Source: a virus. Taken from it: a stretch of 36,507 nucleotides of DNA. Numbering within the stretch: the stretch's first letter is position 1; the number at the start of each line of letters is the position of its first letter. A program made the position numbers and the translations under genes. The notes under the pieces are model-generated. The model was given only the letters and a program-made list of their open reading frames with translations. It was not told where the DNA came from and did not search any database. Below, piece after piece: positions 2,455-35,764 of this stretch. The stretch is from the IMG/VR virus record IMGVR_UViG_3300046557_000366, positions 1-36,507 of that record; one strand, given 5' to 3'.

Positions 2455-3042
2455 ATGCCCATCTCTGACGCCATCCGCAGCCGCATTGTCGAGCTGCTGA
2501 AAGAGGGCGCCACCAACCGCGCCATCGCCCGCGAGCTGAACGTCGACAAGAGCACCCCGGCCCACTACCGCCGCCTGCTCGGCATCGCCCCCGCCACCCG
2601 TACCCTGCCGCGGAACCGTTCGCCGCTCACCATCGAGCAGAAGTGGGCGACGTACACCCGCCCCGCCGAGGGCGACGGCGGACACCTCGAATGGACCGGG
2701 CGACGCACCAAGGTCGGCGCCACACCGGTCATGACGTACAGGGAGCGCACCCACACCGCCCGCATCGTGGCGTTTCGGATCCGGCACGGCCGCGACCCCA
2801 TCGGCTACGTCAAACCGGAGTGCGGCCGGCCCGACTGTGTCGCGCCCGATCACCTCGAAGACGAGCAGGGCCGCAACCGCGTGCGCTCCCAGTTCGGCGC
2901 CCTGCTCGGCCGCACCCCCCGCATCACCGAGTGCACCCGCGGCCACGCCGTCGCCACCCACCGCCGCTACGCGAGCGACGGCACGTCGTACTGCGGCACG
3001 TGCCACGAGGACGCCAACAGAGCCCGCAGGGCCGCCGGGTGA
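2455..3042 (+). CDS. HTH protein fused to a degenerate HNH-like domain
   Basis: A 195-aa protein with two parts. Residues about 3-42 form a helix-turn-helix of the homeodomain-like type (RSRIVELLKEGATNRAIARE, then LNVDKST). Residues about 75-190 align by eye with the intact HNH nuclease at 5670: HTARIVAFRI matches [20 protein letters not shown] matches [12 protein letters not shown], and a shared C-terminal zinc-type module (C-x3-H ... CGTC) follows. At the place of the catalytic VDH of the nuclease this protein has VKP, so the key His is lost. It probably binds DNA without cutting, perhaps as a regulator, but this is inference. Start ATG is supported by GGAAGGA seven bases upstream. Its stop overlaps the next gene (GTGA). 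Confidence 0.72.
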   Translation: MPISDAIRSRIVELLKEGATNRAIARELNVDKSTPAHYRRLLGIAPATRTLPRNRSPLTIEQKWATYTRPAEGDGGHLEWTGRRTKVGATPVMTYRERTHTARIVAFRIRHGRDPIGYVKPECGRPDCVAPDHLEDEQGRNRVRSQFGALLGRTPRITECTRGHAVATHRRYASDGTSYCGTCHEDANRARRAAG

Positions 3043-3318: not shown

Positions 3319-4221
3319 GTGACCCTCGACGCCATGGATTGGGTATGGACCCGGTCCCGCAGCCGCGGTAACGCGCGTCTCGTCCTGCTCGCCGTCGCCG
3401 ACAAAGCACCCGACGCCACGGCCACCGTGCGCATGGGCACCGCCGAAATGGTGCGCAGGGTCAACGCGGCCCGCTCGACCGTCCTCGACGCCGTCGCGGC
3501 CGCCCTCGCGTCCGGCGAGCTGGAGATCACCGAGGCCGCCGCAGGCAGTCGAGCGGCCACCTACCGCATCCCCGGAGCCGTCGACTACGTGCGCGCTACC
3601 GGTCCGAAATCCGGACCGCAAACGCACGACACCCGGGGGTCCGAATCTCAGACCACAAACGGCTACCGGTCCGAATCTCAGACCACAACCGCCCCCGCTA
3701 GTGGTCCGAATCCCGGACCACAACCCGCAGAGCCCGAGGCCGGTTTGTGGTCCGAATCTCAGACCGCTTGTGGTCCGAATTCCGGACCCCTCTACCACCC
3801 AATAGAGAGAGTGAATGAAGGAGTGAGGGAAGAGGGCCCGCCCTCGGCCGTCATCCCCCAGTTCGCCGAGCAGCTGGTCGGCCAGATCACCGCCGCCCGC
3901 GTCTACGTCCCGTGGAACCTCACCCCCGGTGAGTGGTTCAAGGTCGACGCCCTGATCAAGCGCTCCGGTGTCGACATGCTCGCCGCCGTCGCCGTCAGGG
4001 CCGCCACGAAGAAGGACGTAGGCCACGCCCGGTACTTCCTGCGCGCCTGGCAGTCCCTGCCCGCGCTCCCCGCCCCCGGCACCGTCCCCGCGCAGCCCGC
4101 CGGGCCCGGAGCCGACGTGATCCCCCTCGCCGCAGGCCCTCGCCGCCAGGGCCGCGTAGCCACCGCGCAGGCCATGTTCGCCGCCGCGGCCGGCCTCGAC
4201 CCCCAGGAGAACGTTCGATGA
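3319..4221 (+). CDS. Replication initiator-like protein with internal iterons
   Basis: A 300-aa protein with a winged-helix-type N-terminus (residues about 15-75; TAEMVRRVNAARSTVLDAV is the recognition-helix region). A Ser/Gln/Pro/Gly-rich linker (about 94-156) and a helical C-terminal domain (about 172-260) follow. The linker is where the DNA carries six 17-bp palindromic repeats (3601-3788), followed by a stretch noticeably poorer in G+C (3789-3834). This is the lambda O / P22 gp18 arrangement: an initiator that binds an origin lying inside its own gene. The next gene, coupled by ATGA, looks like a helicase loader. GTG start, with CAGGAG about 9 bases upstream. The initiator role is inference from architecture; the repeats and HTH are visible directly. 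Confidence 0.7.
   Translation: MTLDAMDWVWTRSRSRGNARLVLLAVADKAPDATATVRMGTAEMVRRVNAARSTVLDAVAAALASGELEITEAAAGSRAATYRIPGAVDYVRATGPKSGPQTHDTRGSESQTTNGYRSESQTTTAPASGPNPGPQPAEPEAGLWSESQTACGPNSGPLYHPIERVNEGVREEGPPSAVIPQFAEQLVGQITAARVYVPWNLTPGEWFKVDALIKRSGVDMLAAVAVRAATKKDVGHARYFLRAWQSLPALPAPGTVPAQPAGPGADVIPLAAGPRRQGRVATAQAMFAAAAGLDPQENVR
3601..3788. repeat. ori: Six iterons, probable origin of replication
   Basis: Six 17-bp repeats with arms GGTC...GACC start at 3601, 3638, 3668, 3703, 3749 and 3772. Two types alternate. Type A (3601, 3703, 3772) reads GGTCCGAA(A/T)(T/C)CCGGACC-like, with 6-bp arms GGTCCG/CGGACC. Type B (3638, 3668, 3749) is GGTCCGAATCTCAGACC in all three copies. Type A copies lie in codon phase 0 and type B in phase 1, so the DNA, not the peptide, is what is conserved. 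Start-to-start spacings are 37, 30, 35, 46 and 23 bp. The stretch at 3789-3834 is relatively A+T-rich and could be the unwinding element. This is typical of iteron origins. Confidence 0.75.
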
Positions 4222-4922
4222 TCCGTCAGCACGTCGCCGCGCTGCTCGCCTACGCCGTCCGCCTCGACCCCCGCAGCGCTCCCACCGACGCCGCCGCCGC
4301 CGAGGAAACCCTCGACCAGTGGGCCGACATCCTCGCCGACGTCCCCCCGACGGCCCCGCACCCCAACGGCCTCGGGTGGGACGCCTCGCAGGCCGTACGC
4401 CACCACATCGCGACCAGCCCCTACCCGATCAAGCCCAGCGACGTATCGCGGCCGTGGCACGCGTTCAAGGCCGACGTAGTCAGCCGCCACACGGGCACCT
4501 TTGAGCCGAGCAGGCACCCCGAGCTGGACCCCGACGACGTCGCCGGATATCAGCGCGCCCTGTACGCCGACCGCCAGGCCGTAGCCACCGGAGCCGTTCC
4601 TGCCCGGCCGTTCAAGGAGCTCACCGCGGGCCCCGAGGCCGAGGCACAGGCCCGCCTCGCCGCCCTCGGCACCTACCTGCCGCGCACCGTCGCCGACGCC
4701 CTCGCCACCCACCGCCCCGACCGGGCCGAACGCGAACGCCTCGCCCGCACCGGCCGCCCCGACCCGCTCAACGTGCCGTGCCCCTACGAGCCGTGCCGCG
4801 CCCCGACCGGCGAGAAGTGCCGCAACCCCACACGCGGCCGGCCGACCCGCGCCACCGCCCACCCGTCCCGCCTCGACGCCGCCACCGCCCGCCACCACGC
4901 ACAGACCGAGGTCGCAGCATGA
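4218..4922 (+). CDS. Possible helicase loader-like protein with C-terminal zinc motif
   Basis: A 234-aa protein translated from an ATG overlapping the initiator's stop. The N-terminal 80 residues (helix, then LDQWADILAD, AVRHHIATS, YPIKPSDV) resemble by eye the small-helix pattern of phage helicase loader/inhibitor proteins of the SPP1 G39P type: W..hL.D, hAh..hi.ts, P...Di. Such proteins bring the replicative helicase to the initiator at the origin. The C-terminus carries a zinc-type motif seen in many actinophage proteins: VPCPYEPCRAPTGEKC followed by HPSR. Position directly after the initiator with its iterons supports an O/P-like pair. No helicase is encoded, so it would act on host DnaB. 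Loader assignment is tentative. Confidence 0.5.
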   Translation: MIRQHVAALLAYAVRLDPRSAPTDAAAAEETLDQWADILADVPPTAPHPNGLGWDASQAVRHHIATSPYPIKPSDVSRPWHAFKADVVSRHTGTFEPSRHPELDPDDVAGYQRALYADRQAVATGAVPARPFKELTAGPEAEAQARLAALGTYLPRTVADALATHRPDRAERERLARTGRPDPLNVPCPYEPCRAPTGEKCRNPTRGRPTRATAHPSRLDAATARHHAQTEVAA

Positions 4923-5669: not shown

Positions 5670-6146
5670 ATGCCCGCAGCAGCCACAACCGCCGAGCGAT
5701 TCGCCGACAAGGTGAACACCGCCGGGCCCCTCTCCCTCCGCAAGGACGCCCCCGGCCCCTGCCACCTATGGACCGGCCGCCCCAACGCCAAGGGATACGG
5801 GCGGTTCTGGACCGCCGGGCGCAACGTCAAGGCCCACCGCTACGCCTACGAGCTCCACATAGGCCCCATCCCCGCCGGCCTCGAAGTCGACCACCGATGC
5901 CGCACCCGCGCATGCGTCAACCCCGCCCACCTCGAAGCCGTCACGCACCGCGAAAACGTGCTGCGCAGCTCCAACGTCGCCGCCATACGCGCCGCCCGAA
6001 CCCACTGCATCGCAGGCCACAAGTTCGACACGGCCAACACCCGCATACGCCCCAACGGCACCCGCCAATGCCGCGCATGCCAGCGCAACCGCCGCCGCGC
6101 CCCCCGCACCGCACAGACCCCCACCGCATACCGAAGGGCCGCATAA
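5670..6146 (+). CDS. HNH endonuclease
   Basis: A 158-aa HNH nuclease of the phage type. The beta-beta-alpha metal motif is intact: KAHRYAYEL, then GLEVDHRC with the catalytic His, CVNPAHLE with the Asn and second His, and ENV. A C-terminal zinc-type module (CIAGHKFD and CRACQRN) follows and is shared with the protein at 2455. Free-standing phage HNH proteins nick or cut double-stranded DNA. Some work with terminase in packaging and others are homing enzymes. This one sits beside ssb rather than terminase, so homing or recombination is more likely than packaging. AGGTG precedes the ATG. Two bases separate its TAA from the ssb ATG. Confidence 0.85.
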
Positions 6147-6148
6147 CC

Positions 6149-6652
6149 ATGTCCGGCGAAACCATCATCACCGTCATCGGGAACATCACCGATAACCCCG
6201 AACTCAGGTTCACCCCGTCCGGCGCCCCCGTCGCCAACTTCACCATCGCCAGCACCCCCCGCATCTTCGACAAGCAGACGAACGAGTGGAAGGACGGCGA
6301 GACCCTCTTTCTCCGGTCCGCCGTATGGCGCCAGGCCGCCGAGAACGCCGCCGAATCCCTCACCCGCGGCATGCGCGTCATCGCCCAAGGCCGACTCACC
6401 CAGCGCAGCTACGAGAAGGACGGACAGAAGCGCGTCGCCTACGAGCTCCAGGTCGAGGAAATCGGCCCCTCGCTCAAGACCGCCACCGCCGCCGTCACCA
6501 AGACCAACGGCAACAACGGCCAGCAGACCCGCCAGCAGCCCAGCACCGGCGGATACGGCCAGCAGACCCAGGGATACGGCCAGCAGCCCGCCCAAGACCC
6601 GTGGGCCCAGCAGCAGCCCCGCCAGGGATACACCGACGAACCCCCGTTCTGA
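6149..6652 (+). CDS. ssb: Single-stranded DNA-binding protein
   Basis: A 167-aa SSB with an N-terminal OB fold (residues about 1-112: [27 protein letters not shown], then [18 protein letters not shown] and [14 protein letters not shown]). A Gln/Gly/Tyr-rich linker and the acidic tip DEPPF at the C-terminus follow. This tip is the standard docking site for replication and recombination partners. Bacterial SSBs of this class act as tetramers that coat single-stranded DNA. Together with the ERF protein at 635 it makes up the phage recombination set. It follows the HNH gene after two bases and probably shares its promoter. Confidence 0.95.
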
Positions 6653-33123: not shown

Positions 33124-34746
33124 CTACTCGGCCCACGGGTCCGGCTCCCACACAGGATGCACCACGACCTTTGTGCCGTCCTCGGTGCGTACCAGTGCCA
33201 CCCGTCGCGCAAGCTGCTTGAGTAGGCCGTTTCTCCCGCGCGTGTCCAGCGTCGGCCACTCCGCGACCGTGCCGACCAGCAGAGGCACATAGTCGGCGCG
33301 GTGCGGGGTGGTCTCGACGGTAGAGACCCGTTCCAATGCGGCCTGCGTCGCCGCCTGCTTCTTCCGGATGAGATCGCGGGCGGCCTCATACTCGCCCGGC
33401 TCGAATTCGTCCGGGTCGGCTGCGCGTTGGGCCCGCAGGTTGGCGAGGGCGGCGGCATGTTTGTCGACCTCGGCTTGCAGCCTGGCACGGTCGAGCGCGG
33501 CGGCGGCGCGGTGGTCGCGCTGCTCGATGCGCTGCTGAGGGATGCTCGGCGCGGTGTCGATTCCGGGGGCGGCCTCCTTGGCGAGCCACTTCAACACCTC
33601 GGCCTCGACGTCTTCGCGCTTGACCCATACTCCGTCACAGCCGTGGGCGGCCTGTACCGCCCGCCGGCCGCATGTGTACGAGTAGCCGAGGACGTTGGTC
33701 GGAACGTCGTTGATGACGCGCACGGCAGAGTTCGCGGGCGTCGTGCCGCGGCACTGCCCGCACCGGACAAGGTTGGTCAGCATGTACGTGGCACGGCGGG
33801 CCCGCGGCGGTGTGTTCCGCACCTCCTCGCGGCGGTCGCGGTACTGCTGCCACAGCTCGGCATCGATCAGTTCCTCTTGCGCCCCAGGGACGAACAGGCA
33901 GTTTTGACAGTTGTTGCGCGTCTCTGGGTTGCACAGGCACTTTGGGTCATGGATGCGGAGCAGGCCTGCGGCAAATCCGGAGTCCATGTACCGGATCAGT
34001 GTCTGTTCGGACCACAGCCCGCCGCGTACCGTCCGGTGGCCGGCCGCGTTGAGCTCGCCGACGAGCGAATAGAACGCGTCTCCGTCGGTGTACTGCCGGT
34101 ATCGGTCGGCCATGACTGGCCCCGTTTTCGGGTCGGCTAGGTATCTCTCCTCTTGCGTGGTCCAGCCCCCGCGGCCGTCGGGGAGTCGGCGGGGGTGCCA
34201 GATGTAGCCGAAGCGGGGGCGGCCGGTGGCGGGCAGGTGCAGTTTGTAGCGGCGGTGGTCATGGGTCTCCTTCCACTGCTCGCCGCGCACGTCGGATTCA
34301 TATGCCGCGAACTCGAACAGGATCCCGCGTTGCAGTCGGCCGGTCGCCGTACGCGCGTCGCCCTCCTCGGTCGCAGACTCCAGCGTCCCGCCCGCGTCCT
34401 CAAGGCGTTTGAGGTTGACGGCGATACCGTCGCGGCTGCGGCCGAAGCGGCTGTATTTCCATACGGCGATGCCGCGCGCCTCGCCGTCCTCAACGCGCTT
34501 GATGGCGCCCATGATGCGCCGCTTGAAGTTCCGGCCGGTGGCGTCGAGGTCGGTGATGAACGGTTCGAGCAGGCGGCGCCCGGTGCGCTTTGCCCACGCC
34601 CGTAGGGCTGCCTCTTGCAGCTCGGGGCTGATCTTCTCCTCTTTCCACGTGCTCACCCGGATATAACCGAGCCAGGGCTCGCCGTCCTCATCGGTCGGCA
34701 AGCCCTGGAACGTGCTTGGCACGTGCTGAGTTGGTCCTGCTGTCAC
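33124..34746 (-). CDS. int: Large serine recombinase (integrase)
   Basis: A 540-aa integrase. The N-terminal resolvase domain has the catalytic Ser at residue 32 (LGYIRVST) and the usual Arg-rich active-site segment (VWKYSRFGRSRDGIAVNL). The recombinase domain (about 165-290) contains RPRFGYIWHP and FYSLVGELNAAG. An actinophage-type Cys cluster (KCLCNPETRNNCQNC) precedes the zinc ribbon (LVRCGQCRGT ... YTCGRRAVQAAHGC). A coiled coil (about 410-475) and C-terminal tail complete the family plan. It joins attP and attB without host factors; excision needs a directionality factor, which I could not identify. GTG start overlaps the upstream stop (GTGA), with GGGAG before it. Confidence 0.95.
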   Translation of the reverse strand: MTAGPTQHVPSTFQGLPTDEDGEPWLGYIRVSTWKEEKISPELQEAALRAWAKRTGRRLLEPFITDLDATGRNFKRRIMGAIKRVEDGEARGIAVWKYSRFGRSRDGIAVNLKRLEDAGGTLESATEEGDARTATGRLQRGILFEFAAYESDVRGEQWKETHDHRRYKLHLPATGRPRFGYIWHPRRLPDGRGGWTTQEERYLADPKTGPVMADRYRQYTDGDAFYSLVGELNAAGHRTVRGGLWSEQTLIRYMDSGFAAGLLRIHDPKCLCNPETRNNCQNCLFVPGAQEELIDAELWQQYRDRREEVRNTPPRARRATYMLTNLVRCGQCRGTTPANSAVRVINDVPTNVLGYSYTCGRRAVQAAHGCDGVWVKREDVEAEVLKWLAKEAAPGIDTAPSIPQQRIEQRDHRAAAALDRARLQAEVDKHAAALANLRAQRAADPDEFEPGEYEAARDLIRKKQAATQAALERVSTVETTPHRADYVPLLVGTVAEWPTLDTRGRNGLLKQLARRVALVRTEDGTKVVVHPVWEPDPWAE

Positions 34747-35081: not shown

Positions 35082-35486
35082 CTAGGTTGCGCTCTCCCCC
35101 TTTGCGCGGAGGGCGCGAATCATGCTGAGGACTGCGATTTGGTCGGCCTCTTCGGTCACGCCGAGGGCCGCTAGCGCTTCATGTGAAGAGATCTTCGTCG
35201 GGGTTTGCGCGTCGGACTCGTAGAGCTCTTCGAGTGGCAGGAGGCCGGCGCGCGCGAGTAGCGGCATTACCGGGACTTCGAGTGTCTTGGCGACTGCGAG
35301 GAGCGTGCGGGCGTCGGGTGACCCTGCGTCCCGCAGGAGTCGTGAGACCGTCGCGACGGGGATGCCGGAGGCTTCGGCGAAGCGCGCCCGGCTACCGCGC
35401 TCTTCTAGGTCGTACCCGCGGCGCGGGAGGGCCCATCCGAGCCACTCGCCGATGCTCGCCGTCAGGGGCGGCTCTGGTCTTGTCAT
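35082..35486 (-). CDS. Phage repressor-like XRE-family HTH protein
   Basis: A 134-aa protein with an XRE-type helix-turn-helix (about 25-65: SRARFAEASGIPVATVSRLL, then SPDARTLLAVAKTLEVPV) and a helical C-terminus (ISSHEALAALGVTEEADQIAVLSMIRALR). It lacks a LexA-like protease domain, so induction would not go by self-cleavage. It is divergent from the Cro-like gene at 35765 and first in the repressor-membrane protein-integrase operon, which marks it as the probable immunity repressor. I start it at the ATG at 35486. It has no ribosome site, but TACATT lies six bases upstream, fitting a leaderless mRNA. The longer frame up to 35603 would run across the operator region. Confidence 0.78.
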   Translation of the reverse strand: MTRPEPPLTASIGEWLGWALPRRGYDLEERGSRARFAEASGIPVATVSRLLRDAGSPDARTLLAVAKTLEVPVMPLLARAGLLPLEELYESDAQTPTKISSHEALAALGVTEEADQIAVLSMIRALRAKGESAT

Positions 35487-35764
35487 GCGGGCAATGTATC
35501 GCGCATGAACGGTTTTTTGACAGGTGCGCACAGATTCCACACATGCCGAGGTCCCCCCTCGCCCGCTTATCCAGTAGTTGCACGTACAACTTATCGCACA
35601 CATGCTCGATTGAGCACGCTTCTTTCACATTCTCATTACGAAGCCTCGTACCTCGCACACATCGGAGTCAACCCCTCCACTTGGTCGTTCCATGCGTGAT
35701 CGATACGTGTTATGTTTCATCCGTGATCGATACACGATCGCTCATGAATCAGCGAGGTACCGCC
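35487..35764. promoter_or_regulatory. Divergent immunity control region
   Basis: This 278-nt gap separates the repressor and Cro-like genes and is clearly less G+C rich than the genome. Leftward: TACATT six bases before the repressor ATG suggests a leaderless start. Rightward: TTGGTC (35681-35686), 17 bp, TACGTG (35704-35709). Operator candidates: the direct repeat CGTGATCGATAC at 35695-35706 (over the -10) and 35722-35733, the second extending to an imperfect palindrome CGTGATCGATACACG; AGTTGCACGTACAACT (35576-35591, 14 of 16 symmetrical); and TGCTC-GATT-GAGCA (35603-35616). A TTGACA at 35517 has no good partner. Confidence 0.55.

Follow-up and report, generated by a model that had tools for sequence, protein, structure and literature searches.

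A candidate replication origin inside the initiator gene of a Streptomyces phage family, with initiator residues that covary with the bases of its sites

Introduction

Can a phage carry its replication origin inside the gene for the protein that reads it, and what would then match protein to site? A 36.5-kb virus record, analyzed here in its entirety (the window), raises this question with six 17-bp near-palindromes at positions 3601 to 3788, in the linker-coding part of a gene for a putative replication initiator. An earlier note, made from the sequence alone, had proposed that these repeats are the iterons of a lambda O-like origin. In-gene origins are already established in lambda and in RepA_N plasmids such as pSK41 (PMC5703833). 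In lambda, dimers of O bind four inverted repeats inside O beside 39 bp of AT-rich DNA, and P delivers the helicase (PMC6022878, PMC7466680). In pSK41, four Rep boxes lie centrally in rep, and the part of the protein encoded by the origin is a dispensable linker (PMC5703833). In the PLE satellites of V. cholerae, the DNA-binding domain of RepA covaries with the origin (PMC8263062).

The window is related to the Streptomyces siphophages SoJo, Raleigh, Picard, SV1, and Eklok. Relatives of its initiator have been named replication initiation protein or RepA-like replication initiator, and the relative of the next gene is named helicase loader in SoJo. The two roles were thus already suspected from annotation.

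Results

We identified six iterons with start-to-start spacings of 37, 30, 35, 46, and 23 nucleotides (Table 1). The three B sites are identical and the three A sites differ centrally (AAATC, AATCC, and AATTC); the arms of A and B are alike apart from one base. Two points of the earlier note were confirmed: the sites alternate as A B B A B A, and the two kinds differ in codon phase (A in phase 0, B in phase 1). To score the array, we used synonymous-codon shuffles of the initiator gene that preserve the peptide and its codon usage. The gene scored 17, while 300 such shuffles had a mean of 5.15 (standard deviation, 1.19) and a maximum of 10. The array is not a product of chance. Further matches to the iteron anywhere in the window all had 3 mismatches, and the observed match count was reached by no shuffle of the window. 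We rejected scattered operator or stoperator sites, as there were no comparable sites elsewhere in the window.

Table 1. Positions of the initiator gene, its parts, the iterons, and other genes in the window
Feature	Positions	Strand	Remarks
Replication initiator gene	3319-4221	+	GTG start, 300 aa; PHROG matches and annotation of relatives
Winged helix-turn-helix domain (residues 1-91)	3319-3591	+	AlphaFold2 pLDDT mostly >90
Predicted recognition helix (residues 52-65)	3472-3513	+	AlphaFold2 model; S53 and L56 near helix start
Iteron 1 (A)	3601-3617	+	GGTCCGAAATCCGGACC; codon phase 0
Iteron 2 (B)	3638-3654	+	GGTCCGAATCTCAGACC; codon phase 1
Iteron 3 (B)	3668-3684	+	GGTCCGAATCTCAGACC; codon phase 1
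Iteron 4 (A)	3703-3719	+	GGTCCGAATCCCGGACC; codon phase 0
Iteron 5 (B)	3749-3765	+	GGTCCGAATCTCAGACC; codon phase 1
Iteron 6 (A)	3772-3788	+	GGTCCGAATTCCGGACC; codon phase 0
G+C-poor stretch, candidate unwinding element	3778-3834	.	GC 0.49-0.50 versus 0.70 for the gene
Helical C-terminal domain (residues 181-244)	3859-4050	+	AlphaFold2 model
Helicase-loader-like gene	4218-4922	+	Overlaps initiator stop codon; phrog_8924 match and fold
Single-strand DNA-binding protein gene	6149-6652	+	phrog_44, E value 3.9e-41
Serine integrase gene	33124-34746	-	
Repressor gene	35082-35603	-	

In a profile search, residues 1 to 261 of the 300-residue initiator matched phrog_6643, "replication initiation protein" (E value, 1.8e-48), with a weak match to phrog_391, "replication initiation O-like" (E value, 2e-7). 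There was no Pfam match for the protein at E values up to 1, and hence none to the RepA_N and Phage_rep_O models; among 44 relatives, the only Pfam families were HTH_36 and one other, and RepA_N had no match there either. The AlphaFold2 model has a winged helix-turn-helix domain and a helical C-terminal domain joined by a linker (residues ∼98 to 172) that is predicted to be disordered; the array encodes residues 95 to 157, which is essentially this linker. A Foldseek search with the model returned generic winged helices, none at an E value of ≤0.001. By structure comparison, the winged helix resembled the plasmid initiator chains 4pql (Z score, 8.3) and 4pt7 (Z score, 7.9); regulators of the MarR/Fur type were also among the fold matches. 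A search of solved structures by sequence gave no useful relative of the initiator or of the loader-like protein.

We collected ∼90 related genes from scans of viral contigs and genomes, with more added by later scans, and found them in Streptomyces phages, prophages, and a plasmid-phage. The family was counted in 103 of 395 Streptomycetaceae genomes, a number that includes weak matches. The earlier note had suggested a search for homologues with similar repeats. Most relatives carry an array of 4 to 8 palindromic 17-mers at the same position in the gene, just after the DNA-binding domain. The spacing is fixed per clade, being 37/30/35/46/23 in the group of the window and in Eklok, 36/30/24/46/23 in the Picard group, and 17/17/23/22/23 in another clade. 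The iteron sequence varies between clades, with the two arms changing together (GGTCCG, GGGCCG, GGTACG, GGTCGG, GGGTCA, and GCCCCG). Iterons 2 and 3 fall in different reading frames in the window group and the Picard group, so the sites are kept at the DNA level but encode different linker peptides.

It is important to note that the per-gene statistics are uneven in strength, since the arrays of four relatives (L030, L067, L078, and L087) did not exceed the best of their own shuffles (12 per gene). In the distant relatives L152, L154-L156, L166, L170, L183, and L184, the 17-mer detector found only two or three weak copies. The distant plasmid relative L010 (pMDJK44.2) has no array; at the corresponding place in its gene there is a single perfect 17-bp inverted repeat (L010:4404-4440).

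Three phages, Raleigh (L007:3395-4345), Darolandstone (L008:3377-4327), and Ignacio (L012:7492-8403), have no detectable array in the initiator gene. Their initiators begin with a different N terminus (TWFKVDDTAH...), Raleigh and Darolandstone retain a C-terminal part akin to that of the window protein, and the same loader family lies next to the initiator in all three. It looks as if the DNA-binding cassette had been replaced. We considered these phages as array-less homologues that would speak against an in-gene origin and rejected this reading, because the N-terminal domain is a different one.

To relate protein to site, we compared initiator residues with half-site bases in 53 representatives that were <90% identical, with the sites of nine loci placed by hand. 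Of all columns, residue 56 showed the strongest association with base 3 (z, 17.6; runner-up, 7.9), and residue 53 the strongest with base 4 (z, 6.9). In the AlphaFold2 model, these residues lie one turn apart, close to the start of the predicted recognition helix. Across all loci, half-sites had T at base 3 where residue 56 is V, L, I, or T (498 of 502), G or A where it is R (516 of 528), and C where it is E (16 of 16), although shared descent inflates these half-site counts. At residue 53, S, G, and E occurred with C at base 4, N with T, and R with G. Most R56 exceptions at base 3 came from Eklok (L001:4273-4460), in which R56 occurs with T or C and the sites (GGTCGGGAATCCCGGAC) have an altered right arm. 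Eklok and L018 also have in common one extra residue before the recognition helix.

We fixed the rule in advance and then applied it to 32 unseen loci, whose sites were located and put in register blind to the protein; T53 was given no prediction. Base 3 fitted in 330 of 370 half-sites and base 4 in 243 of 268, compared with shuffled means of 53% and 47%, respectively, and none of 10,000 shuffles scored as high. This result held after removal of loci that were >85% identical. The fit was poorest in the T53/R56 group (L207, L209, and L221), which has asymmetric sites. One locus with Q at residue 56 had mostly A at base 3.

To account for descent, we used a tree built by a quick method, with the recognition helix and linker left out and the majority base of each new locus entered by hand. 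On this tree, 12 changes are needed for the class of residue 56 and likewise 12 for that of base 3. Base 3 tracked residue 56 in an average of 5.9 out of 6 independent pairs on supported branches, and no pair ran the opposite way (sign test, P = 0.03). The corresponding numbers for residue 53 and base 4 were 5.5 out of 8, again with no opposite pair. The tree supports repeated joint change of residue and base, though this test alone is not overwhelming. Taken together, sequence-specific reading of the sites by the initiator is well supported by these comparisons.

The array is adjoined by a stretch with less G+C, as the earlier note had remarked. Positions 3789 to 3834 have 50% G+C compared with 70% in the gene, and just 0.6% of the 46-mers in the window are as low; the candidate element as a whole is poor in G+C relative to the gene and is not AT rich in absolute terms. 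The placement recurs among the relatives: in 47 of 53 representatives, the 45-mer with the lowest G+C in the gene starts between −20 and +80 nucleotides from the end of the array (∼12% expected). GC3 in this stretch is 0.57 among the relatives, compared with 0.88 to 0.89 in the rest of the gene, and the encoded peptides differ between clades. The low GC3 fits selection on the DNA for easy opening. GC skew gave no origin signal at the array, and we dropped it as a marker, the extremes of cumulative skew lying far away at 12.4 kb and 35.5 kb.

A loader-like gene had been described as coupled next to the initiator; its start at 4218 does overlap the initiator stop, and its predicted fold bears out the resemblance. 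The predicted N-terminal domain matched G39P of SPP1 (1no1_A) with a Z score of 9.6 (66 of 67 residues aligned; root mean square deviation [rmsd], 1.4) and lambda P with a Z score of 8.4 (77 residues; rmsd, 2.5), while the first unrelated row in the comparison had a Z score of 3.3. These matches rest on a second structural comparison because the plain Foldseek E values were weak. A relative of this gene lies next to the initiator in most loci. The product is likely a helicase loader, as predicted from the model; the common fold with G39P and lambda P does not prove function.

We found no match to DnaB_C, DNA_pol_A, or Toprim_2 in the whole record, which fits the use of host replication machinery. 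The serine integrase and repressor genes suggest that the phage is probably temperate. An HNH endonuclease-like gene with an N-terminal helix-turn-helix lies upstream of the initiator (2455 to 3042), and a second HNH gene is present at 5670 to 6146.

Discussion

On the evidence of sequence comparison and of analogy with lambda, the array is very probably the replication origin of the phage, situated within the coding sequence of its own initiator and working in the manner of lambda ori, O, and P. Initiator dimers would bind each 17-bp dyad through their winged helix-turn-helix domains; in the recognition helix, residue 53 would read base 4 of a half-site and residue 56 would read base 3. The complex may then strain the DNA so that the adjoining G+C-poor stretch (∼3778 to 3834) opens, and the loader would deliver the host replicative helicase; we assign the helicase to the host because no match to DnaB, Pol A, or Toprim was found in the phage itself. 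Opening, helicase loading, and use as an origin are inferred by analogy with lambda. The lambda O-like origin of the earlier note is thus supported by the relatives, the covariation, the drop in GC3, and the fold of the loader; its further idea of two binding modes is not supported (see below).

Other functions could be imagined for such repeats. Selection may have acted on a repetitive peptide linker with units such as GPESGP, with the DNA repeats a by-product, and GPESG, GPDSG, and GPKSG do dominate in the phase-0 sites. However, one DNA repeat is read in different frames within the gene and between clades to give unrelated peptides, the array is lost in synonymous shuffles, and its bases change with the recognition helix. 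We rejected peptide selection on the codon phases and shuffles, and its chance of being correct is negligible; the claim that selection acts on the DNA and not on the peptide is sustained by the frames of the relatives, the shuffles, and the covariation. Equally, the six-base arms and five-base loop could pair as hairpins in the transcript, for instance in translation coupling or stability. This is extremely unlikely, given that arm changes track DNA-reading residues, that the site centers vary freely, and that the gene encodes a winged helix-turn-helix suited to reading DNA. Another reading is that of a transcription regulator whose sites are operators controlling its own operon, with no origin involved. 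Covariation shows that protein and site are matched, not why the protein binds; the HTH_36 domain is generic, and the fold matches include regulators of the MarR/Fur type. Yet the sites lie mid-gene, away from any promoter position, and are followed by a G+C-poor stretch with lowered GC3; in most relatives a G39P/lambda P-like loader comes next, and the PHROG families are those of replication initiators. We therefore regard the operator reading as very unlikely and prefer an origin.

Within the origin reading, the A and B sites had been suggested to reflect two binding modes or a switch between dimer and monomer. G stands at base 7 in 125 of the 169 phase-0 sites, whereas 52 of the 83 phase-1 sites have A there; A at base 13 is seen in 5 and 24 of these sites, respectively. 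The centers that define A and B thus follow codon phase, the covarying bases sit in the arms, and relatives such as L034 and Eklok have sites of almost a single kind. On the other side, the AATCT center (the B spacer) comes back at the third and fifth iterons of several Picard-like relatives, once in phase 0, which may point to a position-specific role. We rejected A and B as two functional classes, since the central bases track the reading frame, and consider two modes of binding unlikely. The simplest reading is that the site center tolerates change and is tuned so that the linker peptide remains acceptable whichever frame is used.

Among known systems, lambda has a similar plan. Both have inverted-repeat sites within the gene, between the DNA-binding and partner domains, an adjoining region of lower G+C (AT rich in lambda), and the loader gene next; O has 299 aa (PMC6022878, PMC7466680) and the window protein 300, and Stx phages have six iterons, as here. 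Unlike lambda, the window protein has no Phage_rep_O Pfam match and just a weak PHROG link to the O-like family, the hosts are G+C-rich actinobacteria, the iteron sequences and spacing differ, and the loader has an extra C-terminal zinc-finger-like domain. The window initiator would work like that of lambda and is not shown to belong to the lambda O sequence family. SPP1 likewise pairs an initiator (G38P) with a helicase loader (G39P), and the predicted N-terminal domain of the loader is close to the solved G39P; SPP1 is a lytic Bacillus phage, however, and its comparison with the window phage covered the loader. pSK41 and other RepA_N plasmids also have sites within the initiator gene, and the winged helix here matches plasmid initiator chains, but the window protein has no RepA_N Pfam match, and the C-terminal domain of pSK41 Rep contacts primase, whereas here a loader gene follows. 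In PLE, the origin is intergenic and the covariation is between modules, with no residue-to-base rule.

Our search of the literature, which subscription papers mostly lay outside, found no paper on this origin, and the accessible literature held no binding, footprint, or origin-mapping study of this initiator family. To judge from the literature that could be searched, three things are new: the actinobacterial family itself, an array geometry that is conserved while the sequence changes, and the rule linking residues to bases. We consider it probable that, in this large family from actinobacterial phages and prophages, a readable code of two positions (residue 53 with base 4 and residue 56 with base 3 of each half-site) largely sets the specificity between initiator and origin. 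With protein and target in one gene, each gene would then be a self-contained and swappable replicator, with a specificity predictable from its sequence.

The family offers dozens of matched protein-target pairs in one gene, with a simple rule that predicted unseen loci. Such pairs make it testable how the specificity of initiator and origin changes jointly without loss of function, what limits array geometry places on an origin, and which phages could share or exclude origins. A likely origin and helicase loader can also be assigned for many unannotated Streptomyces phages and prophages.

Arrays of other forms were seen among the more divergent relatives. A further clade (L197-L226; e.g., L214 and L220), with initiators of the form MSSDAREWVWEHSSSRG..., was found in many Streptomycetaceae genomes and has arrays at ∼nucleotides 380 to 500 of the gene, spacing near 16, 20, 23, and 23, and a loader relative next. 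In L044 and L085, six iterons at gene nucleotides 291 to 458 have a mirror-symmetric spacing of 24, 30, 42, 30, and 24. The distant relatives L160, L163, L164, L167, L181, and L193-L195 carry other array sequences (such as CCCCCGAACACGGTTC or GCAGAATCTGCACCCC) at gene nucleotides ∼250 to 450 and often have Q at the position of residue 56.
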